DNA from: Cellvibrio sp. UBA7671 | GTDB taxonomy: Bacteria > Pseudomonadota > Gammaproteobacteria > Pseudomonadales > Cellvibrionaceae | Direction of reading: 5' to 3' | Length of the DNA stretch: 64,000 bases | Assembly (NCBI GenBank): GCA_002483145.1 | Contig: DLHJ01000002.1 | Location: forward strand, 186,001-250,000 | Program-made: the position numbers and the translations under genes | The notes under the pieces: generated by a model | Databases searched by the model: none | What the model was told of the DNA's origin: nothing | The model's input: only the letters and a program-made list of their open reading frames with translations | In this document: positions 1,360 to 64,000 of the stretch, piece by piece | Layout of the letters: each line of letters starts with the position of its first letter | Numbering within the stretch: position 1 is the first letter of the stretch

Positions 1360-2565
1360 CTATTTGCTAGTCGCTTTTTTAGCCGATGCTGCCAGCGCCA
1401 ACAGCCCCAGCGCAACAATCCCAAACGACACATTCAAACTGCTCAACTCCGCGATAAAACCAATCACCGCTGGACCTGCCAATAATCCCGCATAACCCAT
1501 ACTGACCACTGCTGAAATTGCCAAGCCCATCGGCATGGAATCTTGATTGCCGGCGGCGGTAAATAGCACCGGCACTATGTTGGACGCGCCCACGCCGATT
1601 AGTGTAAAACCGATAAATGCGACGGCAGTAAAGGGGACAAATACGACGAATAAAAATCCTGTGGCGGCGCAGAGCCCGCCCCAAAGCACAACCCGGGTGC
1701 CGCCGAGGGCGTTAACAATTTTATCGCCAGTGAAACGGCCAATGGTCATAGCGACAGAGAAACAGGCATAGCCCAAACCGGCGTGGACAGGATCGATCTC
1801 GCGTACGCTGTTGAGGAATACAGCGCTCCAATCCAGCACCGCACCTTCCGATAAAAAGGCGATAAAACAGAGGCTGCCGAGCAGTAATACTTTGCCGCGC
1901 GGCAATACAAAAAAGGGTTCGCGTTCGCCGCTGATGTTGTCGGGGTTGTTGTCGTTATTGCTCTTGGGTAAAAGATCTTTTGCGCAATAGGCCAGCATCA
2001 GCAGCAATACGGAGGTGAGGCTCAAGAGCGCGTGAAAGGGCGATAAACCCAGCCACAACAATGCGCTCATTACCACTGCCCCGAATATCCCGCCCAAACT
2101 GTAAAAACCGTGGAAGCCCGACATCATCGCCCGGCCGCTGGCTTTTTCCACGACTACGGCTTGCATGTTCATGGCCACGTCGGTCGCGCCGAGCATCATC
2201 CCGAATATCAGCAAGTTAACAGCCATGCCCGGCACGCCGGGAGCGATCGCGAGGCACACCAAACTCAAACACATCAACAATAGGCTGCTGGTGATAACAC
2301 GGCGGCACCCGTAGCGATTCACTAATAATCCCGTGACTGGCATGGCGAGTAGTGATCCAACACCAAAACACAGGATTAAGAGGCCGAGTGTGGATTCGCC
2401 AATCGCGAGGCGCGCTTTGACAAACGGAATCAGCGGCGCCCAAGCGGACATGGCGAGGCCAGTGATGAGGAAGGCGAAGCGGGTTGACATTTGTTGAGCG
2501 AACCCCAAGGTTTGGGGGGCTCCGGTGCTGAATGTCGCTGGAGCGGGTAGATCCTTGTCAAGCAT
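1360..2565 (-). CDS. MFS transporter, YbjJ-like
   Basis: This is a major facilitator superfamily inner-membrane protein of 401 residues with about 12 hydrophobic segments. The N-terminal half carries MSTRFAFLITGLAMSAWAPL followed by a loop resembling the MFS motif between TM2 and TM3 (VTGLLVNRYGCRRVITSS). The overall pattern resembles E. coli YbjJ and related proteins of unknown or drug/sugar export function; the substrate cannot be read from sequence. The longest frame begins at a TTG (2577). I prefer the ATG at 2565, which has a weak GAGA site 7 bases upstream. Another possible start is the Met at 2490, close to TM1. The gene is alone and convergent with purU. Confidence 0.85.
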   Translation of the reverse strand: MLDKDLPAPATFSTGAPQTLGFAQQMSTRFAFLITGLAMSAWAPLIPFVKARLAIGESTLGLLILCFGVGSLLAMPVTGLLVNRYGCRRVITSSLLLMCLSLVCLAIAPGVPGMAVNLLIFGMMLGATDVAMNMQAVVVEKASGRAMMSGFHGFYSLGGIFGAVVMSALLWLGLSPFHALLSLTSVLLLMLAYCAKDLLPKSNNDNNPDNISGEREPFFVLPRGKVLLLGSLCFIAFLSEGAVLDWSAVFLNSVREIDPVHAGLGYACFSVAMTIGRFTGDKIVNALGGTRVVLWGGLCAATGFLFVVFVPFTAVAFIGFTLIGVGASNIVPVLFTAAGNQDSMPMGLAISAVVSMGYAGLLAGPAVIGFIAELSSLNVSFGIVALGLLALAASAKKATSK

Positions 2566-2743
2566 AGGTTTTCTCAAATAACGGTTGTGAACTGCGGATA
2601 GTAAGTACTAAGGTGGGGGATAAAAAGTGATTGGTACTATAACATCGGGTCTGCATCGCCCGAGTGAGGATTTGTTAATTGCAAGCCGACTAAGGGCTTC
2701 GCCCGAGGCAAAAAAAGCCAATTACGCGCGGAGGGTAAAGTTT

Positions 2744-3184
2744 ATGAGATCGGTTTTTATTTTTATCCTGAGTTTCTTCTCCATGTCTGTTGCTGTGAGC
2801 CAGGACAATCCTTTTGGTGTGTATCAGTGGCAATACAGGATTCTCGTAATTTATACAGCAGATAATTCCACTGACGAATTTCTTGGGCAGGTACAAGAAT
2901 TTACTCAAAACAAGGATGCCTTTGAGGAGCGGGATTTGGTTGTTTTCCAGATTCACAATGATGTGCTTGTCGCCATGACCAAACAGCCTGAGATGGCAAC
3001 TATAAACGCGTTGTCCGTCAAAACTGCCTTGGGTATTGCCAAGGATGATAAGTTTCAGGTGGTACTGATCGGTAAGGATGGTGGCATAAAGCTGCGAGAG
3101 AGTCAGATGGTTTCCAGCCAGAAGTTATTTACGTTAATTGACGGCATGCCCATGCGGCGCAGCGAAAAGAAAACCCCGAATTAA
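2744..3184 (+). CDS. Small exported DUF4174-type protein
   Basis: A 146-residue protein with a clear signal peptide (MRSVFIFILSFFSMSVAVSQ) followed by a compact domain. The domain contains YQWQYRILVIYTADNS near its start and FQVVLIGKDGGIKLRES near its end, and resembles DUF4174, a thioredoxin-fold-like family of unknown function. No CxxC motif is visible, so redox activity is not suggested. The frame stays open upstream to 2627, but the ATG at 2744 has a good ribosome site (GGAGGG about 8 bases upstream) and begins the signal peptide exactly, so I use it. It lies between two minus-strand genes and is probably monocistronic. The function is unknown. Confidence 0.75.
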   Translation: MRSVFIFILSFFSMSVAVSQDNPFGVYQWQYRILVIYTADNSTDEFLGQVQEFTQNKDAFEERDLVVFQIHNDVLVAMTKQPEMATINALSVKTALGIAKDDKFQVVLIGKDGGIKLRESQMVSSQKLFTLIDGMPMRRSEKKTPN

Positions 3185-3221
3185 ATCCTGAGGCCTACCT
3201 CTCCAGGTCATGTATTGATGA

Positions 3222-5768
3222 TTACGTCTGCCAACAAATCAGAGTGGTCTCGATTGGCACTTGCACCTGTGGGTGAGCGGGAATCACCCGCAGGCTAAAA
3301 TCGCCAGCGGGGCGGGCCTTCGGCAGCAAGCCGCTGTAGTGATAGGTGTTGGCGATACCGGCGCGGGTAAGTGTCAGGCTGATGCGTTCTGCGGGCTGTT
3401 TGCCCTCGTTATCGGCGATTGCCTCCACGGTAATATTGTCCGGTGTAATCGCCCCGAGGTAGATATTCACCTCCAACCGCCAGCCTGTCTCGGCGTCAGT
3501 GAAACTGCGCTCTCCGATATGAATTTCATGCCAATGCCTGTGTAAATGTCGCGTCCAGTCATTGAGGGTTTTGGCGAGCTGACCGTGGTTTTCAACCCGC
3601 GCCTGAAACGCCGTGGCGGCGGGTAGGTAATGCTTCTCGATGTATTCCTGCAGCATGCGATTACTGCTAAAACGCGGTGTGAGTTGCGCCATGCTGCTGC
3701 GCATCTGCTCAATCCATTCACGGGGTATGTCTTCGGCATCGCGCGCGTAAAAGCGCGGGATAATGTCGTTTTCCAACAGTCGATAAAGTTGCTCCGCGTC
3801 AGCGCTGTCTTGCGCAGGATCATGCTCCTCGCCGTCACCAAGCGCCCAGCCAAATTCCGCTTTGTAAGCCTCGGCCCACCAGCCATCCAATGTGGATAAA
3901 TTCAATCCGCCATTAACCAGGATTTTCATCCCGCTGGTACCACTGGCTTCCCAGGGGCGGCGCGGGTTGTTAATCCACACATCCACACCTTGAACCAAAT
4001 GTTGCGCGAGGCTGATGTCGTAATCTTCGATAAAGAGCAAATGCTCCGCTACCTCTGGCCGTAGCAAAAACCTCTGCCAACCCTGCAGTTTGGTTTTGCC
4101 GATAGTGTCGGCTGGATGCGCCTTGCCCGCGACAATCAACTGCACCGGGTATTTGGGATTACACAGGATACGTGCCAGTCGCTCAGGGTCATGCAGCAGT
4201 AAATCAGGGCGCTTGTACTCGGCGAAACGCCGCGCAAAACCCAGGGTGAGAATATTGGGGTCGAGCGGCAGTTCAATCGGAATCTCGCAGTTGGGGGAGC
4301 CCGGGGGCAGGTTGGTTTCAACGAGTACTTCATGGCGCCATTGGCGCGCGAAACGCTGGCGGGCGTAGTCCACCAAACGCGCCCGTCCGCTGGCGGCCAT
4401 ATGCCAGAGCTGTTGGTCAGTGACTTGTTGCAGGGCGTTGGGATTCATTTTTTGCAGGTCATCCCTCCACCGCTCTTTGCCATAGGCTTGGGTCCAGATG
4501 GCATCGGCTTCGGGGGAATCCCAGGTCGGCATATGTACGCCGTTAGTGACATGGCTTACGGGCACCTCGCGCTCGGGCCAGCGCGGAAATAAGGGTTGGA
4601 AGATCCGCTGGCTCACACGCCCGTGCAGTTCGCTTACGCCGTTGCTGTGCGCGCAAGTGCGCATAGCGAGATAGGCCATGTTAAAGGGTTCATTGGTATT
4701 TTTGGGATCGGCGCGCCCGAGGACCAGAATATCGTCCAGCGTCACCCCCATTGCCAGCGCCGATTCTCCCGCATAACGGCGCAATAATTCGGTGGGGTAG
4801 CGATCAAACCCGGCGGCAACGGGCGTATGAGTGGTAAACAAGTTGCCCGCGCGCGTTGCCCAGAGTGACTCCCAAAAGCTGGTGTTATTTTCCACGCTGA
4901 AGCTGCGGATGCGCTCAAGCGTGGCAAAGGCCGCGTGGCCTTCGTTCAGGTGGCAGATGTCGATATCCAACCCGAGCGTTTCAATCAGCCGCCAGCCGCC
5001 AATGCCCAGCGCGATTTCCTGCACCAGCCGCAGCTCGGTACCGCCACCGTAGAGTTTGCTGGTGATACCGCGGTCGTGTGGCTGATTGCAGGGATGATTG
5101 CTGTCGAGCAGATAAAGTTTTACTTTGCCGACCTGTGCTACCCAGATACGAAACCGCACCCGGCGGCATAAAAATCCGGTTTCGATATCCAGCCAGCGGC
5201 CATCGCTGTCGCGCAGGGGGCGGATGGGCAAACTGCCAGGGTCGTTATAGAGATAAGTTTCTTCCTGCCAGCCATCGCGGTTCATGCTTTGGCGAAAATA
5301 ACCCTCTTGATACAAGAGCCCAATCCCCACCAGCGGCAGCCCCAAATCGCTCGCGGTTTTGAGATAGTCGCCAGCGAGAATACCCAACCCGCCAGCATAG
5401 AGCGGCAGGGCATCGCAAATGCCAAACTCCATACTGAAGTAGGCGATACCGCGCACCCCGGTGTTGGGTTTATCGGGTTGGTTGAGATAGGTGCGCGAGT
5501 ACCAACCCGGGTCGAGCAGATAATATCGCCGTGCATCGACAACTTGCTGAAGTTGCGTAAGAAATACGGGGTCACCGGCGAGCCGTTCGAGTGTGGCACC
5601 GCTGGTGAGTTGCAGCACACTTACCGGGTTGCGGGTCTGCTCCCAAACCTCGGTATTCAGGCTGCACCAGAGTTGGTCGCTGGCGTGGTTCCAGTTCCAA
5701 TGCAAGTCAGCGGCAAGCTCCTCCAGTATCAGCAGCGGCTCGGGTAGCAGGCGTTCAAAACCGGGCAT
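3222..5768 (-). CDS. glgP: Alpha-glucan (glycogen) phosphorylase
   Basis: A GT35 phosphorylase that releases glucose-1-phosphate from glycogen or maltodextrin using pyridoxal phosphate. The 848 residues begin with a DUF3417-type N-terminal domain (LLILEELAADLHWNWNHASD), which marks the short, archaeal/Thermotoga-like subfamily rather than E. coli GlgP/MalP. Family landmarks include GVRGIAYFSMEFGICDALPLYAGGLG, THTPVAAGFDRY, VTNGVHMPTW and the PLP-lysine block EASGTSGMKILVNGG near residue 613. The ATG at 5768 lies 14 bases inside the end of the upstream ATPase gene, so the two are probably translationally coupled. A longer frame to 5861 would overlap the ATPase by over 100 bases and is unlikely. 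Confidence 0.93.
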   Translation of the reverse strand: MPGFERLLPEPLLILEELAADLHWNWNHASDQLWCSLNTEVWEQTRNPVSVLQLTSGATLERLAGDPVFLTQLQQVVDARRYYLLDPGWYSRTYLNQPDKPNTGVRGIAYFSMEFGICDALPLYAGGLGILAGDYLKTASDLGLPLVGIGLLYQEGYFRQSMNRDGWQEETYLYNDPGSLPIRPLRDSDGRWLDIETGFLCRRVRFRIWVAQVGKVKLYLLDSNHPCNQPHDRGITSKLYGGGTELRLVQEIALGIGGWRLIETLGLDIDICHLNEGHAAFATLERIRSFSVENNTSFWESLWATRAGNLFTTHTPVAAGFDRYPTELLRRYAGESALAMGVTLDDILVLGRADPKNTNEPFNMAYLAMRTCAHSNGVSELHGRVSQRIFQPLFPRWPEREVPVSHVTNGVHMPTWDSPEADAIWTQAYGKERWRDDLQKMNPNALQQVTDQQLWHMAASGRARLVDYARQRFARQWRHEVLVETNLPPGSPNCEIPIELPLDPNILTLGFARRFAEYKRPDLLLHDPERLARILCNPKYPVQLIVAGKAHPADTIGKTKLQGWQRFLLRPEVAEHLLFIEDYDISLAQHLVQGVDVWINNPRRPWEASGTSGMKILVNGGLNLSTLDGWWAEAYKAEFGWALGDGEEHDPAQDSADAEQLYRLLENDIIPRFYARDAEDIPREWIEQMRSSMAQLTPRFSSNRMLQEYIEKHYLPAATAFQARVENHGQLAKTLNDWTRHLHRHWHEIHIGERSFTDAETGWRLEVNIYLGAITPDNITVEAIADNEGKQPAERISLTLTRAGIANTYHYSGLLPKARPAGDFSLRVIPAHPQVQVPIETTLICWQT

Positions 5769-55344: not shown

Positions 55345-56055
55345 TTATTTTAAATAAACGAAACTGTTTAACGTTAGCCGCCCAACAATCGGGTTGGGGC
55401 GGAACTGGAAGTTCTCTGGAATAGATGCGGAGTGAAGTACATCACTAGGGTACATAATCAAACGATTAAAATTGGACTCATAACGGGCAATTTCCTCGTA
55501 GTATTGGTTGGAGCCATTAATATATTTTTTATGCCAACTCGTATCCTGCGCCTCTTTTGCAAGATGTTCCCCGTATATATCCATTCGCTCAGGTGAAAGC
55601 AGTTCAAATCCAGTTGCTCTATGCCGATAAAGAGATGTACCACCTTTTTCTGGTGTGCAAAGGTAATGTACACACGCCAGCTTTTCTTTGTGAATCGTAT
55701 CGACATGCGGGCGCGATTGCGGCAACGCTAAACGGGCCGGTGGAGTGAGTATCAATGAATAGGTAGATTGGGAATAATTGATATTTTCTCGCGTAAGGCT
55801 AAACGCTTCACAAATTATATCGGGTAAATAAGTTTGCAATGCCTGGCTATAAAACTCAGGTACATGAGATTGTATTCCGGGGTAATAATCCGTCCCATCG
55901 CTAAACTCGCCAAATTTCACCGCGTAGCCCAATAAAGCTTCCGCTTCGTGTAAAAAATTATCGATTACCAATACAGGTACTTTTTCATTGCCAACAATCT
56001 CAATGCGATAACGGAACTGTGGGTGCAGCGGCGGCAAGAAATTGTTATTGGACAT
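55345..56055 (-). CDS. DUF6445-like protein, possible Fe(II)/2OG oxygenase fold
   Basis: A 236-residue protein resembling DUF6445. A possible H-x-D...H iron site is visible: RPHVDTIHKEKLACVHYL and later MYPSDVLHSASIPENF. Such proteins often sit in halogenase/SapC loci. It is convergent with halogenase 2, with only 9 bases between the stops. The start at 56055 (MSNNNFLPPLHPQFRYRIEI) is chosen on family-like sequence and a weak GAG site; upstream in-frame Met codons exist at 56115, 56166 and 56205 and lack ribosome sites. The function is unknown. Confidence 0.72.
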   Translation of the reverse strand: MSNNNFLPPLHPQFRYRIEIVGNEKVPVLVIDNFLHEAEALLGYAVKFGEFSDGTDYYPGIQSHVPEFYSQALQTYLPDIICEAFSLTRENINYSQSTYSLILTPPARLALPQSRPHVDTIHKEKLACVHYLCTPEKGGTSLYRHRATGFELLSPERMDIYGEHLAKEAQDTSWHKKYINGSNQYYEEIARYESNFNRLIMYPSDVLHSASIPENFQFRPNPIVGRLTLNSFVYLK

Positions 56056-56261
56056 GTTGTTGAACTCATGGTTTTTATACCGCTCATTATCACTTATTCC
56101 GAAACCGCCTTCCATGTTAATACTGGTTTTAGTGATGGGGGTTAAGCTTATGCTTTTGGTAAGCATTATTTGAATCACCAATCTTCCTCGCTGTATCATC
56201 CCCACCCAGAGTCACCGGCACCCTTAATCCTTATGGTGCCAATGCAGCAATCTGGGTCGAT

Positions 56262-59200
56262 ATGTCAAATATGTGGTTAAGTTATAAACAATCCATCGTC
56301 AACGTGATGGGGCAGGATCGGCACAATCTCACGCGCCGGCTGGGCGAAATAGAAAAGCTTGCACGTGCGGAAAAGCCCTATGATCAGGCTTTGGAGAAAT
56401 GGCATAGCCAATTGGCTCGCTCACAAGCCGCCGTGGCGCGTCGTCAGCAACTGGTTCCTCTCGACATTGAATTCCCCAATTTACCCGTCTGCGAAAAACG
56501 TGAAGAGATCGCACAGATTATTGCCAACAATCAGGTAGTAGTATTGGCGGGTGAAACTGGTTCGGGCAAGACTACCCAAATCCCCAAAATTTGTTTAACC
56601 ATCGGTCGTGGTGTGAGCGGGTTGATTGGCCACACCCAACCGCGCCGTATTGCCGCTAATACCGTTGCCAATCGCATCGCTGAAGAATTAAAAACCACGC
56701 TCGGTGAAAAGGTGGGCTATCAAGTTCGCTTTAGTGATCAGTCCAATGAAAATACCCTTATCAAAGTAATGACCGACGGTATTCTGCTGGCCGAAATCCA
56801 GCACGATCCTTATTTGAATAAATACGATACGCTCATTATCGACGAAGCCCATGAGCGCAGTTTGAATATCGATTTTTTGCTGGGTTATTTAAAACAACTT
56901 CTCCCCAAACGCCCTGATTTAAAATTAATTATTACCTCCGCGACTATCGATCTCGAACGTTTCTCACAACATTTTAATAACGCACCGATTATTGAAGTTT
57001 CCGGTCGCACCTATCCGGTTGAAGTCTGGTACCGTCCACTCTATGAGTTTGAGGGCAGCGACGAGAGTGAAAATGAACCCGACCAATACGCGGCGATCGT
57101 CGATGCGGTACACGAAATTGAATTGCACGAAAAGACCGGTTCGGGTGCTCGCGGTGGCGACATACTCATTTTTTTAAGTGGTGAGCGCGAAATTCGCGAG
57201 GCCGCCGAAGCGCTGCGCAAAGCACAGTTTGCGCATATGGAAGTAATTCCTTTTTATGCGCGCTTGAGTTTGGCGGAGCAGCAAAAAGTATTTGCACCTC
57301 ACACCGGGCGGCGCATTGTATTGGCCACTAACGTGGCAGAAACCTCGATTACTGTGCCTGGAATTCGCTATGTAATTGATCCGGGTTTTGCGCGTATCAG
57401 CCGCTATTCCTATCGCACCAAAGTGCAGCGCTTACCGATTGAACCTGTTTCACAGGCTAGCGCCAATCAGCGCAAAGGTCGTTGCGGTCGTGTCGCTGAA
57501 GGTATTTGTATCCGCTTGTATAGCGAAGACGATTTTAATTCGCGCCCGGCATTTACCGATGCAGAAATTTTGCGCACCAACCTCGCTGCCGTTATTTTGC
57601 AAATGTTGCAATTGCGCATGGGCGATATCCATAAATTTCCATTTATCGATGCACCTGATCATCGTTTGATTAGCGATGGTTTTAAATTGCTGGAAGAATT
57701 ACATGCGGTCAATGCCAAAAACCAGCTGACACCAGTGGGGCAGCAACTCAGTAAATTGCCATTGGATCCGCGCCTTGCCCGTATGTTGCTATCAGCACAG
57801 GAGCAATCCTGTGTGCGTGAACTATTAATTATTTCCAGTGCGCTCTCAGTACAAGACCCGCGCGAGCGCCCCGCCGAAAAACAACAGGCAGCCGATCAAA
57901 GTCATCGCCGTTTTTGGGCAGAGCACACGGATTTTGCCGGTTTTGTAAACCTGTGGGATTATTTTGAAACCCAGAGACAGGAACTCACGCAAAACCAATT
58001 GCGCAAACTCTGCAAAAAAGAATTCCTGTCTTATTTGCGCTTGCGCGAGTGGCGCGATGTGCATCATCAGTTGTGCGTTGCAGTGAAAGATCTCGGTATT
58101 CGCGTTAATTCTGAACCGGCTAATTATGAATCGGTGCACAAGGCATTGTTGACCGGCTTGCTCGGCAATTTGGGTTTTAATCATGAAGAGCGCGAATATC
58201 TGGGCGCACGCAACCGCAAGTTTGCAATATTTCCGGGTTCATCGCTCGCCAAAAAAACACCTAAATGGATTATGGCGGCAGAGCTGATTGAAACCTCTAA
58301 ATTGTTTGCCCATACGGTTGCCAAAATCGAACCAGAATGGGTCATTGCCGCTGCTGAACATTTGGTGAAACGCCAGCATTTTGAGCCGCACTATGATAGC
58401 CGCAGCGGCCAGGTGATGGTGTTTGAAAAAATTACACTCTATGGTTTGACCATCGTTGAGAAAAAATCGGTCAGCTATAGCCATATAGATCCAGTGCAGT
58501 GTCGCGAAGTATTTATTCGCGCGGCTTTGGTAGAAGGGCAGTATGACCAACACCCCAAACGGAAAAGTTTGCAGAATAAAAATCCTGACACAGACTTTTT
58601 TATACATCAGCAACAGTTGTTAAAAGAACTGGAAGATCTCGAATCCAAAGCGCGTCGCCGCGATATCGTGGTGGATGAGCAGGTGATTTTTGATTTTTAC
58701 AACGAGCGCATCCCTGAGTCTGTGGTAAATCTTGCCGGGTTTGATGCATGGCGAAAAAAAGCGGAACAGCAAAATCCGAAACTATTATTCCTGACGCGAG
58801 AGATTTTGATGCGTCACGGCGCGGGTGATATCACCCAGGCGCAATTTCCCAATGAATTGGAATGGCGCGGTATGGTATTTCCACTGAGTTACCATTTTGA
58901 ACCAAACCATGCTTTTGACGGTGTGAGCATTCACGTGCCCATGAGTGTTTTACATCAAGTTCCGGAGCAGCGTCTGGAATGGTTGGTGCCGGGTATGTTG
59001 CGTGAAAAATGTATCGGCCTGATTAAATCCCTACCTAAAACTGTGCGCAAACATTTTGTTCCTGTGCCTGATGTGGTGGATAAAATTCTTGCCACTTTGT
59101 CACCTGACAATAAGCCCTTGACCGAAGCGCTGGGCCTGCAATTAAAACGCTTGACCGGTGTAGAGGTGTCCAAAGAGGCTTGGCTTGAAACCAGCGTGGA

Positions 59201-60224
59201 TGATTACTACCGCTTTAATATCCATGTGGTGGATGACAAAGGCAAGGTCATCGCTAGTGGCCGCGAACTGGCGCCACTGCGCGATAAGTATCGCGAACGT
59301 GTACAACAAAATATTCAATCTGCCGCTACCAATATTGAACGTGATGGCATAGTAGCGTGGGATTTTGCTGAGTTGCCGCAAGCGATTCAATTGCCTCGTG
59401 GTGGAATCAGTATTCGCGCTTATCCGGCATTGGTTGACAAGCAATCCTCAGTTGCACTGCAAGTGTTAGATAATCCATTGCAAGCATTGGATATAACCCA
59501 GCGTGGACTCGCGCGTTTGGTGTATTTGTCACTAGCGCAAACAGTTAAATATTTGCAGAAAGAGTTATTGAAAGGGCAAGAGGTTGCATTGACTTTAGCG
59601 GGTATTGGTAACCGCGAGCAAGTGGCCGACGATTTAATTATGGCGGCGATCAAACAACTTGCTTTACCTGATCAGAAAAATTTACCTCGCACCCAAATTG
59701 CTTTTGATGAGCGGGTTAATCTTATTAAAGAAAAATTAATTGCTTATGCACAAGATTTGGCGAGCTATCTGGTTAGCAGTTTGAAATTATTGGTTGATGT
59801 TAAAAAACAAGTCAAGCAACAAAAAAATATGTTGGTGTTAGCGTTTACGATTAGTGATATCAATCAACAATTAGCGCAGTTGTTTTATCCCGGATTGGTG
59901 TATAAAACGCCTGCGCTGTGGTTGCAGCAATACCCGAAATACATGCGCGGCATCCAACAGCGTTTGGAGAAAGCGGCGTTGAACCCGCAAAAAGATAAAC
60001 TTCAACTAACGGAAATAGTGCCGCATTGGCAGCGGCTAGTGGATTATCTGGCGAAAGAGGGCGATTACCGGTTGGCGCAGAATACGGCACTGATGGATTA
60101 CCGTTGGTGGATTGAGGAGTTGCGGATTTCGCTTTTTGCGCAGACCCTCAAAACCCAGGTTCCGGTATCCGATAAGCGGATGGATAAACAGTGGGAGCAG
60201 GCCATGTTGGAGGCCCAAGGTTAA
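56262..60224 (+). CDS. hrpA: ATP-dependent RNA helicase HrpA
   Basis: A DEAH-box RNA helicase of 1320 residues, matching the HrpA length. Walker A is GETGSGKTTQ near 97, DEAHERS near 194, motif III ITSATIDLERF, motifs V-VI VATNVAETSITVPG-like and QRKGRCGRVAEG. Then come the ratchet/HA2 region, an OB-fold domain and the long HrpA-type C-terminal part (DUF3418). HrpA rescues colliding ribosomes and processes mRNAs in E. coli. It is divergent from the DUF6445 gene and monocistronic. Confidence 0.96.
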   Translation: MSNMWLSYKQSIVNVMGQDRHNLTRRLGEIEKLARAEKPYDQALEKWHSQLARSQAAVARRQQLVPLDIEFPNLPVCEKREEIAQIIANNQVVVLAGETGSGKTTQIPKICLTIGRGVSGLIGHTQPRRIAANTVANRIAEELKTTLGEKVGYQVRFSDQSNENTLIKVMTDGILLAEIQHDPYLNKYDTLIIDEAHERSLNIDFLLGYLKQLLPKRPDLKLIITSATIDLERFSQHFNNAPIIEVSGRTYPVEVWYRPLYEFEGSDESENEPDQYAAIVDAVHEIELHEKTGSGARGGDILIFLSGEREIREAAEALRKAQFAHMEVIPFYARLSLAEQQKVFAPHTGRRIVLATNVAETSITVPGIRYVIDPGFARISRYSYRTKVQRLPIEPVSQASANQRKGRCGRVAEGICIRLYSEDDFNSRPAFTDAEILRTNLAAVILQMLQLRMGDIHKFPFIDAPDHRLISDGFKLLEELHAVNAKNQLTPVGQQLSKLPLDPRLARMLLSAQEQSCVRELLIISSALSVQDPRERPAEKQQAADQSHRRFWAEHTDFAGFVNLWDYFETQRQELTQNQLRKLCKKEFLSYLRLREWRDVHHQLCVAVKDLGIRVNSEPANYESVHKALLTGLLGNLGFNHEEREYLGARNRKFAIFPGSSLAKKTPKWIMAAELIETSKLFAHTVAKIEPEWVIAAAEHLVKRQHFEPHYDSRSGQVMVFEKITLYGLTIVEKKSVSYSHIDPVQCREVFIRAALVEGQYDQHPKRKSLQNKNPDTDFFIHQQQLLKELEDLESKARRRDIVVDEQVIFDFYNERIPESVVNLAGFDAWRKKAEQQNPKLLFLTREILMRHGAGDITQAQFPNELEWRGMVFPLSYHFEPNHAFDGVSIHVPMSVLHQVPEQRLEWLVPGMLREKCIGLIKSLPKTVRKHFVPVPDVVDKILATLSPDNKPLTEALGLQLKRLTGVEVSKEAWLETSVDDYYRFNIHVVDDKGKVIASGRELAPLRDKYRERVQQNIQSAATNIERDGIVAWDFAELPQAIQLPRGGISIRAYPALVDKQSSVALQVLDNPLQALDITQRGLARLVYLSLAQTVKYLQKELLKGQEVALTLAGIGNREQVADDLIMAAIKQLALPDQKNLPRTQIAFDERVNLIKEKLIAYAQDLASYLVSSLKLLVDVKKQVKQQKNMLVLAFTISDINQQLAQLFYPGLVYKTPALWLQQYPKYMRGIQQRLEKAALNPQKDKLQLTEIVPHWQRLVDYLAKEGDYRLAQNTALMDYRWWIEELRISLFAQTLKTQVPVSDKRMDKQWEQAMLEAQG

Positions 60225-60271
60225 GAAATGTTGATCCCTTGTAACAAATCCGGGTGTGTTGAGTCTATCCT

Positions 60272-60348
60272 GTAACCATATGGTGGTTAGCTGTTGGAGT
60301 GTCCATAAAATCGGATGCATCCGCTAGCTCTACTGCCTTGGCTATGAT
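60272..60348 (+). promoter_or_regulatory. Candidate control region of hvfA
   Basis: An inverted repeat TAACCA-TATGG-TGGTTA (60273-60289) lies about 115-130 bases before hvfA, and a strong -10-like TATGAT (60343-60348) lies about 55 bases before it. No good -35 is spaced correctly, so activation by a regulator or a different sigma factor is possible. Confidence 0.35.
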
Positions 60349-60403
60349 AGTTTTCTTACGGCTTGAACAGCCCCTAACGACACATAACACGCTGGAGTTC
60401 ATT

Positions 60404-60766
60404 ATGAATAACAAAATTGCTTCTCTGTCTGCTTTGGTTGGCGCTGCTTTTGTAGCATCGGCGGCGTTGGCCCCAATGGCAACAGCGGCAGATGCCACCT
60501 TTGCTGCCACCTCGTTAAACGCAGGTTATACCCTAGCGGATAACGCCGATAAAACTGATGCCGAGCACAAGTGCGGTGAAGCCAAATGCGGCGCGGATAA
60601 AAAAGCCGAAGGCGAGCACAAATGTGGCGAAGGTAAATGCGCTGCTGAGCATAAAAAAGCGGATGGCGAAGGAAAATGTGGTGAAGGCAAATGCGGTGAA
60701 GGTAAGTGTGGTGCCGATAAAGCCGAGAAAAAAGACGAAGCTAAAGAAGAGAAAAAAGCTGAATAA
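60404..60766 (+). CDS. hvfA: HvfA/bufferin-type RiPP precursor with seven E-x-K-C motifs
   Basis: A 120-residue exported precursor. The signal peptide (about 1-29: MNNKIASLSALVGAAFVASA then ALAPMATAA) is followed by a short linker. The core (about 54-103) has seven Cys at 57, 62, 74, 79, 92, 97 and 102, each within E-x-K-C-G or E-x-K-C-A. Three are exact EGKCG (the run around 89-103); the others read EHKCG, EAKCG or EGKCA. The tail is Lys/Glu-rich. In Haemophilus HvfA, EGKCG cysteines are converted to oxazolone-thioamides that bind copper(I). The MNIO and DUF2063 genes follow immediately. TGGAG lies 7 bases before the ATG. The stop overlaps the next start by 1 base (TAATG). Confidence 0.88.
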   Translation: MNNKIASLSALVGAAFVASAALAPMATAADATFAATSLNAGYTLADNADKTDAEHKCGEAKCGADKKAEGEHKCGEGKCAAEHKKADGEGKCGEGKCGEGKCGADKAEKKDEAKEEKKAE

Positions 60767-61632
60767 TGCCAGCGCATTCTTTGGTGGATTATTCTGCTGC
60801 AATCGTCGGTGCAGGTTTAGGCCTGCGCCGGACGCTGCTAAATACCCTTGAAGAATCCACGCCAGACGATATCCATTTTATGGAAGTGGCACCGGAAAAT
60901 TGGATTAATGTCGGTGGTCGTCTTGGTAAAAAATTTCGCGCTTACACTGAGCGTTTTCCGTTTGTCTGCCATGGTTTATCCCTCTCAATTGGTTCGCCCG
61001 CACCACTGAATACAGATTTGCTACACTCAATAAAAAAGCTGATGCAAGAGCACGGTATCCGTTATTACAGCGAGCATTTAAGTTATTGCAGCGATGACGG
61101 GCAGCTCTACGATTTATTGCCCATTCCTTTTACCGAAGAAGCCGTTGACTATGTCGCCGCGCGTATCCAGCAAGCGCAGGATATTCTTGGCCAGCGCATT
61201 GCCATCGAAAATTCTTCTTACTATTGCGCACCACAGCAGGAAATGACGGAAAGTGAATTTATCAATGCCGTCATCAAAAAAGCAGACTGCGCGCTCTTGC
61301 TTGACGTAAATAATATTTACGTTAACAGCATTAATCATAATTACGATCCCTACGAGTTCCTATCCAGCTTGCCTGGCGAGCGCACCGCTTACATTCATAT
61401 TGCAGGCCATTACAAAGAAGCCGAGGATTTGCGGGTAGATACCCATGGCGCACCGGTAATTGCATCGGTGTGGGATCTGCTCGACAAAACCTATGAACTG
61501 TTTGGTGTAAAACCGACGTTGTTGGAGCGCGATTTTAATATTCCACCGCTGCCAGAATTAATGGCGGAGTTAGATGAAATCAAAACACGCCAGCGCTTGT
61601 CTTCGTCAATCAATGTTCGTGCTGGTCTATAG
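60766..61632 (+). CDS. hvfB: MNIO (DUF692) enzyme, HvfB/BufB-like
   Basis: A 288-residue TIM-barrel multinuclear non-heme iron oxygenase. Family residues able to bind two or three irons are visible: His69 in FPFVCHGLSLS, Glu103-His104 in YYSEHLSYC, Glu149-Asn150 in IAIENSSYY, Asp180-Asn183 in LLLDVNNIYVN, His211 and His215 in YIHIAGHYKE, Asp225 and His227, and Glu254 in LLERDFNIP. It should oxidise the precursor's Cys residues using oxygen. A DUF2063 partner follows 4 bases downstream. Its coupled start (TAATG) with hvfA implies matched expression of substrate and enzyme. Confidence 0.93.
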   Translation: MPAHSLVDYSAAIVGAGLGLRRTLLNTLEESTPDDIHFMEVAPENWINVGGRLGKKFRAYTERFPFVCHGLSLSIGSPAPLNTDLLHSIKKLMQEHGIRYYSEHLSYCSDDGQLYDLLPIPFTEEAVDYVAARIQQAQDILGQRIAIENSSYYCAPQQEMTESEFINAVIKKADCALLLDVNNIYVNSINHNYDPYEFLSSLPGERTAYIHIAGHYKEAEDLRVDTHGAPVIASVWDLLDKTYELFGVKPTLLERDFNIPPLPELMAELDEIKTRQRLSSSINVRAGL

Positions 61633-61636
61633 CATC

Positions 61637-62380
61637 ATGAAATCGTTTCAAGAAACCCAACTGGCATTTACCCAACATTTGCGCGCCCCCGATCGCTACC
61701 CTGCACCAGCAGAAATGAACGATACGCGGATGGGTATTTATCGCGACTTGATTTACAACAATATTGAAAGTTTTATCGCCAATGTATTTCCTGTTCTGCG
61801 TTCACTGCTCAGCGACGGGCATTGGCATTCGATGGTGCGCGATTTTATTCATCGCCACCGCTGTCAAACGCCGTATTTTTTGGAAATCAGTGAGGAGTTT
61901 TTGCAGTATCTGTCGCAAGAGCGTGGCATGTGCGATGGCGACCCGGCATATTTGCTTGAACTCGCACACTATGAGTGGATTGAGTTGGCGCTGGATGTGA
62001 ATGAGGCGAGTATTCCAGCGGTTTCTGCCTATCCAGAAACGCCGCTTCTATCTAAACCACGTGTTTCGCCTTTGGCTGTGTGTTTAAGCTATCAATATCC
62101 CGTACATAAAATCTCTCCCCGCCATCGACCTCTGGCACCAGAGCTGACACGGTTAGTGGTATACCGCAACCGCGAGGATAAGGTGCGTTTTATGACGGCT
62201 AATACTATGACGTTGCGCCTCTTACATTTGCTGCAAACCAACCCCCAGGCTACCTTGGGGGACCAACTGCAACTTATTGCCACCGAACTGCAGCACAACC
62301 AACCTGACGTTTTGTTTGGTGAAGCTCAGGTGCTCATTAATGAGCTGTTTGCATTGGATGTCATCAGCCATTTTGAGTAA
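61637..62380 (+). CDS. hvfC: DUF2063 RiPP recognition partner, HvfC/BufC-like
   Basis: A 247-residue protein with an N-terminal DUF2063 domain (about 1-100: FTQHLRAPDRYPAP, MGIYRDLIYNNIESFIANVF, LRSLL) and a C-terminal domain (about 130-245) with RLVVYRNREDKVRFM. Partners of this type help the DUF692 enzyme bind its precursor. The ATG at 61637 is 4 bases after the hvfB stop and has no clear ribosome site, so translation is probably coupled. A longer frame from 61574 lies inside hvfB and is not supported. No DoxX/HvfD gene follows. Confidence 0.9.
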   Translation: MKSFQETQLAFTQHLRAPDRYPAPAEMNDTRMGIYRDLIYNNIESFIANVFPVLRSLLSDGHWHSMVRDFIHRHRCQTPYFLEISEEFLQYLSQERGMCDGDPAYLLELAHYEWIELALDVNEASIPAVSAYPETPLLSKPRVSPLAVCLSYQYPVHKISPRHRPLAPELTRLVVYRNREDKVRFMTANTMTLRLLHLLQTNPQATLGDQLQLIATELQHNQPDVLFGEAQVLINELFALDVISHFE

Positions 62381-62514
62381 GGGATATCCGTGACTACATT
62401 TTCACTGGTGATTTTTGCAGCCATTTGGTTATCAAAAGCGCAAAAATAGTGCAAAAAGTTTGGTCTTTTACCCTAAAACCACGTTTAATCACAAAATTAG
62501 GGCAAATTTCTTTA

Positions 62515-62520
62515 TATAAT
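62515..62520 (+). promoter_or_regulatory. Candidate porin promoter -10 element
   Basis: A perfect TATAAT lies about 160 bases upstream of the porin ATG in an AT-rich stretch; the -35 region (around 62491-62497) does not match TTGACA. The 298-base gap between hvfC and the porin gene otherwise shows no gene. Confidence 0.4.
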
Positions 62521-62678
62521 CCGCCCGCGACATTCAGAGTGCGTTTTGTCATCTTTCTGTAACTTTATGGTCACACAATGGCAACACCCCTGAAACACAA
62601 ATGTCATTTTATTAATAACACCTGACTCCCGGTGTTCAGGGTCTGAACACCAAACACACACATCCAGGAGACGACTCC

Positions 62679-63662
62679 ATGAAAAAAACATTATTGGCTC
62701 TGGTCATTGCATCTGTACTTCCCGCCGCTGCGTTCGCCGACGTTATCGTTTATGGTAAAGCAAATGTGTCTGTGCAAAGCACCGATGAAGCTGCTCTTTC
62801 CAGCGCTAACGGCAACCAAGCTGACGGTAGCAAAGTTGAATTGCTGAGCAACGCATCGCGCATTGGTGTTAAAGGTGGTGAAGAAGTTAATTCACAGCTG
62901 AAAGTAATTTATCAATTTGAATACCAAACTGAAGTGGATGATGGTACCAACGGTAGCCAGACTTTTGGTCAGCGTAATATCTATTTGGGTTTGCAAGGCT
63001 CTGCCGGTACTATTATGGGCGGTCACTTTGATACCCCGACAAAAGTCGCGCAAGAAAAAATTGATTTGTTCAACGATCTGGAAGGTGATATCACACATAT
63101 ATTCAAAGGTGAGATTCGTGCGAGCAACATCGTTCAATACGTAACTCCAACCTTTGGCGGTGGATTCTCTGGTTCGGTTGCTTATGTGACTGAAGAAAAT
63201 GATGGTGTGACCAAAAAAACCGGTGAAACAGGTAACGGTATTTCTGCATCATTCGGCTACAACAGCCCAACGTTTTATGTTGGTGTAGCTATGGATCAGG
63301 ACGTTGAAGCTGAAGGCGTTGATTTGATTCGTGTGGTTGGTCGTTTGACTCTCGGCGCTTTCCAGTTAGGTGTGTTAGGTGAGAATTACGATAACGGTGT
63401 TGCCGATGAAGAAGATGGTGCACTGGTTTCTGCATTGTGGAATGTAACTGACAAGTGGGCGGTAAAAGCACAACACGGCAGCTCAGAAGTTAGATGGATT
63501 GATGGCGAAAGCAGCAGCATTGGTGTGGATTACAAAATGACCAAGAGCGCTACTTTGTTTGGTTATTACACCGTGGTAGAAAATGGCCAGCCAGATTTGG
63601 TTGCTGTAGACAACTACCGCGATGATAACTACGCTGGTATTGGTTTGGATTACAAATTCTAA
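62679..63662 (+). CDS. Gram-negative trimeric porin
   Basis: A 327-residue outer-membrane porin of the Porin_4 (OmpC/PhoE-like, beta- and gammaproteobacterial) type. Signal peptide MKKTLLALVIASVLPAAAFA precedes DVIVYGKANVSVQSTD, the classical start. Alternating barrel strands (GSAGTIMGGHFDTPTKVAQ, GIGLDYKF end) and the terminal Phe are visible. CAGGAGACGACTCC precedes the ATG. It follows the hvf operon but probably has its own promoter (TATAAT upstream). The substrate is unspecific diffusion; a link to the copper peptide is only positional. Confidence 0.92.
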   Translation: MKKTLLALVIASVLPAAAFADVIVYGKANVSVQSTDEAALSSANGNQADGSKVELLSNASRIGVKGGEEVNSQLKVIYQFEYQTEVDDGTNGSQTFGQRNIYLGLQGSAGTIMGGHFDTPTKVAQEKIDLFNDLEGDITHIFKGEIRASNIVQYVTPTFGGGFSGSVAYVTEENDGVTKKTGETGNGISASFGYNSPTFYVGVAMDQDVEAEGVDLIRVVGRLTLGAFQLGVLGENYDNGVADEEDGALVSALWNVTDKWAVKAQHGSSEVRWIDGESSSIGVDYKMTKSATLFGYYTVVENGQPDLVAVDNYRDDNYAGIGLDYKF

Positions 63663-63690
63663 TTGTTGTAGTTCTTACTATGCGAAAATA

Positions 63691-63712
63691 AAGGGTGCCT
63701 CGGCACCCTTTC
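63691..63712 (+). terminator. Intrinsic terminator of the porin gene
   Basis: A perfect 9-bp stem, AAGGGTGCC-TC-GGCACCCTT, followed by TCTTGTTT, about 30 bases after the porin stop. Confidence 0.85.
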
Positions 63713-63757
63713 TTGTTTGTACGTAATTTTGATAAGTAGCTAAAAAGAGGTGATGCG

Positions 63758-64000
63758 ATGAAATGGTTACTGACAGTTATTATCAGTGCGTGTTGCGCTA
63801 CTCAGTCCTATGCCGATGACACCTGTGAAAATGCTGTTGACGCGGCCGATTCAATGAATGTAAACCAGCAGAATTGCGATTACACCGATGAAGGGCTTAA
63901 TGGGGTTTTACACAAAGCCTTTAAAAAAGGTAGTGAAGGGGCAGTGCTGGAAACGGCTATAGAAAATTCTGCTGATGAGAAAATCCCAGCAACAGGAGGA
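63758..64000 (+). CDS. Small exported protein, partial at window end
   Basis: The first 81 codons of an open frame with no stop before position 64000. A signal peptide (MKWLLTVIISACCATQSYA, cleavage after about 19) is followed by DDTCENAVDAADSMNVNQQN and two Cys that could pair. AAGAGG lies 7 bases before the ATG. I do not recognise a family. It continues past the window end. Confidence 0.65.
   Translation, partial: MKWLLTVIISACCATQSYADDTCENAVDAADSMNVNQQNCDYTDEGLNGVLHKAFKKGSEGAVLETAIENSADEKIPATGG

Follow-up and report, generated by a model that had tools for sequence, protein, structure and literature searches.

Published systems are described here from excerpts of the cited papers. Among those closest to the locus studied, fontiphorin of Fontimonas thermophila is made from a minimal A-B-C operon (fonABC), in which a precursor with seven Lys-Cys repeats is accompanied by a multinuclear non-heme iron-dependent oxidative enzyme (MNIO) and a DUF2063 partner with a RiPP (ribosomally synthesized and post-translationally modified peptide) recognition element (RRE), and it carries seven 5-thiooxazoles (PMC13097082). 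The Haemophilus influenzae and Neisseria gonorrhoeae products are likewise 5-thiooxazoles (PMC13097082). Oxazolin of H. influenzae is made from hvfABC together with hvfX, under the published control of an extracytoplasmic function (ECF) sigma factor and a small zinc-binding anti-sigma (ZAS) factor (PMC13419390, PMC7907618). The mmr/bulbicupramide operon of Microbulbifer also combines an EGKCG precursor with an MNIO and a DUF2063 protein, DoxX being unmentioned in the excerpts (PMC12538549), and the Buf2 bufferins (BufA2/BufB) employ the same class of maturase and partner (PMC12452194). Here we analyzed a 64-kb stretch of the 5.04-Mb genome of Cellvibrio sp. UBA7671 (G000:C9:186001-250000; hereafter the window), which harbors an intact hvfABC operon of the EGKCG captophorin type. 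We consider it highly probable that this operon serves in envelope stress under ECF control and that the thiooxazoles of its peptide hold Cu(I). The operon itself is an ordinary copy of a published family, and the new part lies in its surroundings, which bear on the switch of EGKCG captophorins (the Microbulbifer version is silent and its role was left unassigned by its authors), on the equivalence of EGKCG peptides and bufferins, and on the role of HvfX.

The hvfABC operon and its products

The three genes lie on the plus strand: hvfA (60404..60766; 120 a.a.), hvfB (60766..61632; 288 a.a.) and hvfC (61637..62380; 247 a.a.). As stated in the preliminary description of this DNA, they are tightly coupled, since the hvfA stop and the hvfB start overlap by one base (TAATG), only 4 bases (CATC) separate hvfB from hvfC, and all frames are intact. 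Two reverse-strand open reading frames (ORFs) over hvfA (83 and 89 a.a.) were not accepted as genes, being reflections of the Cys-repeat codons.

The seven cysteines of HvfA occur, in order, in EHKCG, EAKCG, EHKCG, EGKCA, EGKCG, EGKCG and EGKCG, within core repeats counted by motif at residues 54-103 (60563..60712). The earlier account of a signal-peptide-bearing precursor with seven E-x-K-C cysteines thus holds for all seven sites, although the exact EGKCG form is found in only three, and the signal peptide was assigned by eye (residues 1-28, 60404..60487; ending at about A28, with likely cleavage after ATA and similar starts in congeners). HvfA scored 65.6 bits against NF050137, the KCGExKCG domain model (cut-off 19.5), and no match to the DUF2282 (BufA1) or BufA2 models was listed up to E = 1. 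The label "bufferin-type" is therefore inappropriate in its strict sense, and by these model scores HvfA belongs to the EGKCG/oxazolin branch, separate from the strict bufferins, within the class proposed as captophorins.

Between the signal peptide and the core (60488-60562), HvfA and many precursors of loci L026-L089 share, by eye, F-x4-L-x2-GY-x-LA, often as NPF...L..GY.LA, which is a candidate HvfC recognition element. The precursors of L047, L065 and L070 carry EF-hand-like stretches beside their K-C repeats, as in a second EGKCG precursor type already described (PMC12452194). In the Cellvibrio genome G003, which lacks the ECF gene introduced below, a divergent precursor (L152, reverse strand 1423-1797) has HCAEGRCAEGKCA-type repeats.

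The hidden Markov model searches confirmed the DUF692 and DUF2063 assignments, with both maturation proteins above the Pfam and NCBIfam equivalog cut-offs. HvfB, the MNIO (DUF692) maturase, scored 349.7 bits against PF05114 (cut-off 25) and 439.4 against NF003818, the HvfB equivalog (cut-off 360), but 268.8 against the BufB model (cut-off 310) and only 47.7 against the MbnB model TIGR04159, far below its cut-off of 325 for methanobactin-type MNIOs. HvfC (DUF2063 plus the RRE-type NGO1945_C) scored 93.6 bits against PF09836 (27.2), 87.2 against PF22106 (27) and 282 against NF050145, the HvfC equivalog (142), and also matches the structure 3dee. With the VcMbnB ligand set (MbnB ligands, PMC8888699) and HvfB N175/D242/H244 as references, counterparts were located at H69, H104, E148, D180, N183, H211, D225, H227 and E254; no ligand was found to be missing, as first proposed, in a mapping by motif and spacing rather than structural superposition. 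Gene content, family scores and ligand motifs are thus direct observations.

A survey of HvfB relatives in named genomes yielded 65 loci, of which the closest were Cellvibrio proteins with 83-94% identity (L026-L030). In 53 of the 65, a crude search of roughly 900 bases upstream detected a secretory precursor with K-C repeats, so the gene order is not a chance arrangement, and both order and family stand as originally described.

A predicted promoter site shared with an unlinked hvfX-ECF operon

Alignment of the upstream regions of 15 Cellvibrio hvf operons revealed TGTAAC and TCTA at a fixed spacing. In the window, TGTAAC-N18-TCTA (TGTAACAAATCCGGGTGTGTTGAGTCTA) occurs once on both strands together, at 60240-60267 on the plus strand, 136 bases 5' of the hvfA ATG, and from its motif and conservation we predict it to be an ECF sigma promoter; a sigma-70 promoter for hvfA was not found in 60100-62900. 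In the whole genome, TGTAACAA-N15/16-TCTA has exactly two sites, one before hvfABC and the other before an unlinked operon (L110) encoding a DoxX protein, an ECF sigma factor and a 79-a.a. protein. The DoxX protein (G000:C11:378938-379573) is an HvfX equivalog (NF050144, 239.1 bits; cut-off 80), and the 79-a.a. protein matches the anti-sigma model NF052368 (52 bits; cut-off 50) and contains C-X23-H-X3-C-X2-C. The ZAS motif C/H-X23-26-H-X3-C-X2-C is in range at 17 of the 18 ECF loci of the genus, the first gap being longer in G005. A DoxX gene was not found between hvfC and the porin gene among the ORFs and Pfam matches of the window; judged from its equivalog score, the "missing" fourth hvf gene resides in this unlinked operon with the sigma and anti-sigma genes. 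The genome has 18 sigma70_r4_2 matches, response regulators included, and only L110 has the site upstream within one mismatch; in L109 and L114 the site match is 3' of the sigma-type gene and on the opposite strand. The form TGTAAC-N16/18-GTCTA proved too strict, since in most ECF operons a different base stands ahead of TCTA, and its match at C11:286464 was discarded as apparently internal to a response-regulator coding region.

We compared 21 Cellvibrio genomes, using E <= 1e-20 as the ECF criterion. The ECF was present in 18 of them (absent from G001, G002 and G003), and the site preceded the ECF operon in all 18, exactly in 17 and with one mismatch in G008. Fifteen genomes have hvfABC with K-C repeats; the site precedes hvfA in 12/12 of those with the ECF, including the window's genome, and in 0/3 of those without it (in G005, which has the site, the hvfA start was taken at MNNK rather than in the over-long frame). 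Fisher's exact test for site versus ECF gave 0.0022 if the genomes are treated as independent, and they are related. In the hrpA tree, G002 is nested among ECF-bearing genomes (100/99 support), so that ECF and site are absent together against the tree. A close HvfX (72-100% identity) was detected in exactly the 12 genomes with both the ECF and an EGKCG-type hvfABC. No match appeared in 200 shuffles of each of the 21 upstream regions, nor on their reverse strands. Site conservation and ECF co-occurrence are thus observed, and recognition of the hvf promoter by the ECF is predicted from the co-occurrence and the motif.

Across the genus, the exact form TGTAACAA-N16-TCTA has 38 sites versus 14 for a reversed control pattern. 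Of the 38, 11 precede hvfABC, 6 a BufA2 operon and 15 an ECF operon, which leaves 6. Four of these precede msrAB (G016), msrPQ (G013 and G020) and ovoA (G018); the other two, in L238 (G015) and L242 (G020 C2), are not followed by a fitting gene and appear fortuitous. The predicted co-regulation with methionine-sulfoxide repair in some congeners suggests that copper sequestration may belong to a response to oxidative damage of the envelope. A few EGKCG clusters are reported to include Oxidored_molyb and ferric-reductase genes (PMC12452194), the domains that we found in the congener MsrP and MsrQ.

ECF control of such operons has precedents. H. influenzae RpoE2, paired with the small anti-sigma factor HrsE, has msrAB, mtsZ and the hvf cluster under its control (PMC7907618), RpoE7 of Sinorhizobium meliloti acts through TGTAAC...CGAA promoters on a DUF692-DUF2063 operon (PMC6180224), and Caulobacter crescentus sigma-F recognizes GTAACC-N16-CGAA (PMC3511200); the Cellvibrio -10 element (TCTA) differs. 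The ECF16/SigF promoters, in which a shared TGTAAC or GTAACC is combined with CGAA at -10 (PMC6180224, PMC3511200, PMC8315932), were set aside as direct parallels, and Acinetobacter SigAb, tried as a copper-linked ECF parallel, has a different promoter (PMC12153292). The passage on Neisseria meningitidis sigma-E (PMC3240639) gives no promoter sequence for comparison. While H. influenzae keeps hvfX with hvfABC, the Cellvibrio hvfX lies outside and heads the ECF operon, and we liken the two ECFs by context, not as orthologs. Similarly, the Cellvibrio system differs from fontiphorin in its EHKCG and EGKCA variants and in having hvfX in trans with an ECF/anti-sigma pair.

In the family as a whole, the ECF (E <= 1e-25) was found in 34 of 144 genomes and 7 of 32 genera; genus g22, presumably Microbulbifer from its precursors, gave no match at this threshold. 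We scanned 20 hand-chosen captophorin upstream regions from outside Cellvibrio, 14 from the 16 further ECF-bearing genomes (G050 and G140 omitted) and 6 from genomes without the ECF, and none of the latter (0/6) had the site. In G111, a BufA2-like operon with the site is immediately preceded by the ECF gene. A separate scan of the named genomes covered 53 of the 65 loci (in the other 12, some at contig ends, no K-C precursor had been picked) and found the motif within one mismatch in 13/53, with 0.9 expected from mononucleotide shuffles and 0/53 on the reverse strand. The 4 exact sites were all from Cellvibrio, and five of the 9 one-mismatch sites came from related Piscirickettsiaceae/Cycloclasticus records. 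Of the named Cellvibrio contigs, that of Cellvibrio sp. OA-2007 (L029) has the site and that of C. mixtus J3-8 (L030) lacks it. In G139, of another genus, an ArsM-like methyltransferase gene (L156, 2372-3451; NF008823, 180 bits, under the cut-off of 263) adjoins the ECF/anti-sigma pair.

Alternation of hvfABC and BufA2 operons beside hrpA

The operon is flanked by an hrpA-type helicase gene (DUF3418; 56262..60224, plus strand) and, on the far side, by a porin gene (Porin_4; 62679..63662, plus strand), both assigned by Pfam and synteny. In all 15 genomes with the K-C-repeat operon, hvfABC follows hrpA in the same direction, the HvfB match lying 400-667 bases beyond hrpA, and the porin gene comes next in 13/15 (not found in G003 and G008). 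Six congeners (G011, G012, G013, G015, G018 and G020) retain the ECF and have a BufA2-type captophorin operon instead, comprising a BufA2-type precursor, BufB, DoxX and DUF2063. In G013 the precursor was scored by model (NF050166, 83 bits; cut-off 60), and those of the other five were recognized by NACKG motifs. Unlike hvfABC, the Buf2 operon has a precursor with NACKG-type Cys-Lys motifs and doxX inside the operon, and faces hrpA in the opposite orientation (6/6), and it is preceded by the same exact site in all six. The excerpts of PMC12452194 place sigma genes in Buf1 but not Buf2 clusters.

In five of the six, the BufA2 operon directly adjoins hrpA, at 18-569 bases; in G011, two other genes (3.4 kb) intervene, one of them with a cytochrome-c-like CAACHG motif (L179, 3081-6205). 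A divergent porin gene flanks the BufA2 operon in 5/6 (not found in G011), and its product is only 38-53% identical to the window's porin, so the site is firmly anchored by hrpA and only weakly by the porin. A branch of the hrpA tree (81/80 support; 80% of bootstrap trees) separates the six BufA2 genomes from the rest, which is consistent with a single event of replacement between hvf and BufA2. Midpoint rooting would make hvfABC the older state, but the two deepest rows (G003 and G008) are long branches.

From this observed alternation, we think that the hrpA-side site in Cellvibrio is probably a captophorin socket on a fixed ECF/anti-sigma circuit, in which EGKCG and BufA2 operons replaced one another while the promoter was kept, and HvfX/DoxX moved between the captophorin and sigma operons. 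The 3.4-kb insert in G011 and the weak porin anchor at the BufA2 loci slightly weaken this interpretation. If it is true, the EGKCG and BufA2 families would be functionally interchangeable, and HvfX/DoxX would be a required partner wherever the circuit is present. Searches of the open-licence PMC literature, judged from their listings, turned up neither the Cellvibrio regulon nor the hvf/BufA2 replacement.

A further BufB-type locus, in G007, lacks the site. G020 has an additional hvfBC pair elsewhere, also without the site, preceded by a non-repeat precursor, an 82-a.a. frame lacking K-C repeats, with a lipobox-like LSSC and a C-terminal PSGGCGH (L149, reverse strand 1952-3797); this frame is perhaps a different hvfBC substrate.

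Proposed function and alternative explanations

By analogy with relatives, HvfC (DUF2063 + RRE) would present the precursor to HvfB, which, with a di-iron cluster and O2, could convert up to seven Lys-Cys sites to 5-thiooxazoles; the cofactor reported for the oxazolin system is a mixed-valent di-iron center that needs HvfC (PMC13419390). The expected mass shift is -4 Da per Cys, or -28.22 Da for seven sites. FonBC tolerates A at repeat position 5, a residue found here in EGKCA; when residues other than Pro were tried at positions 1 and 2, R at position 1 was the sole blocking change (PMC13097082). After Sec-dependent export, the modified HvfA would sequester Cu(I) in the periplasm. Transcription of hvfABC would depend on the ECF sigma factor, restrained by its zinc (ZAS) anti-sigma factor, and the same sigma factor would also transcribe its own operon with hvfX, so that a complete Hvf system is predicted to be split over two loci and united by one promoter. 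We infer HvfA modification, Cu(I) binding, export and ECF activation by oxidative or metal stress of the envelope from the relatives. In the 5-thiooxazole family, induction is reportedly often by surplus metal or oxidant and not by copper starvation (PMC13097082).

Several observations weigh against the reading of hvfABC as an ECF-controlled, copper-holding system. HvfA scored 48.9 bits against NF050188, the HvfA equivalog, below the cut-off of 95, and two of its sites are EHKCG, a variant not seen among the fontiphorin variants tested in the excerpts of PMC13097082. The homologous Microbulbifer operon is silent in its host; its product bound Cu(I) in vitro, and the authors were hesitant about a copper-protective label (PMC12538549). 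G001-G003 keep hvfABC with neither the ECF nor a close HvfX, and thus these two are not indispensable. Outside Cellvibrio the link looks looser, the site being exact in 9/14 ECF-bearing cases and within one mismatch in 11/14. As for the controls, the regions upstream of the 18 ECF operons, read on the reverse strand, gave one control match, with one mismatch, and the reversed pattern likewise has two sites in the window's genome; it is therefore placement and conservation of the site, not its count, that carry the argument.

That equal frequency of the reversed pattern could also mean that TGTAAC-N18-TCTA is an inherited sequence, or a site of some other factor, rather than the promoter of the linked ECF, and the congeners are related, so that 12/12 does not amount to 12 independent events. 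We nevertheless regard this as improbable: the spacers vary between genomes while both ends stay fixed, site and ECF are jointly absent from three genomes, one of them (G002) inside the ECF-bearing clade, the site also stands before another kind of operon (BufA2) in 6/6, and the shuffled and reverse-strand controls of the 21 upstream regions were empty. The partners predicted in congeners, msrAB, msrPQ and ovoA, as methionine-sulfoxide and thiol genes, together with the HOCl-responsive H. influenzae RpoE2 that drives the hvf cluster (PMC7907618), might suggest that the peptide serves above all as a thiol shield against oxidants in the periplasm (HOCl, peroxide) and that copper binding is a secondary function. 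This role appears unlikely, since close relatives bind Cu(I) (PMC13097082, PMC12538549) and BufA2-type bufferins, a family reported in copper stress (PMC12452194), occupy the same position behind the same predicted promoter.

Periplasmic copper binding, as proposed in the preliminary description, stays the best inference, and by analogy the peptide would sequester the metal. Methanotroph copper ligands made by MNIOs are chalkophores, and Cellvibrio is associated, from paper titles, with copper enzymes (lytic polysaccharide monooxygenases), but a copper-acquisition role here is very improbable, as the neighbors are hrpA and a porin gene, no TonB-type importer was seen in 56000-64000, and induction in the family frequently follows excess metal or oxidant, as noted above. 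The chemistry assumed in the preliminary description, oxazolone-thioamides as in methanobactin, was the original assignment for oxazolin, and the NCBIfam HvfA models NF050137 and NF050188 are still named "oxazolone/thioamide-modified", while the 2026 papers now say 5-thiooxazole. Such heterocycles are scarcely credible here: alkylation-assisted heteronuclear multiple-bond correlation (HMBC) excluded them for the fon, hvf and ngo products (PMC13097082), the laboratory that first described oxazolin has adopted 5-thiooxazole for the HvfA product (PMC13419390), and the window's HvfB scores far lower on the MbnB than on the HvfB model. The earlier label is therefore outdated, superseded by 5-thiooxazole.

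Outside the window, the genome has a second MNIO locus (L091, 7761-9769; G000:C15), whose protein scored 190 bits against PF05114 and fell under all of the listed NCBIfam MNIO equivalog cut-offs. Its neighbors are an upstream 136-a.a. protein with a Tat-like RRDF signal and GCLNCG, and a 203-a.a. partner without a Pfam match, similar in size to a Cellvibrio PME-type 2 partner (PMC12452194). Beside them, on the minus strand (L091, 5003-7294), a divergent gene encodes a 763-a.a. protein with an ELNPQPEPPG motif.

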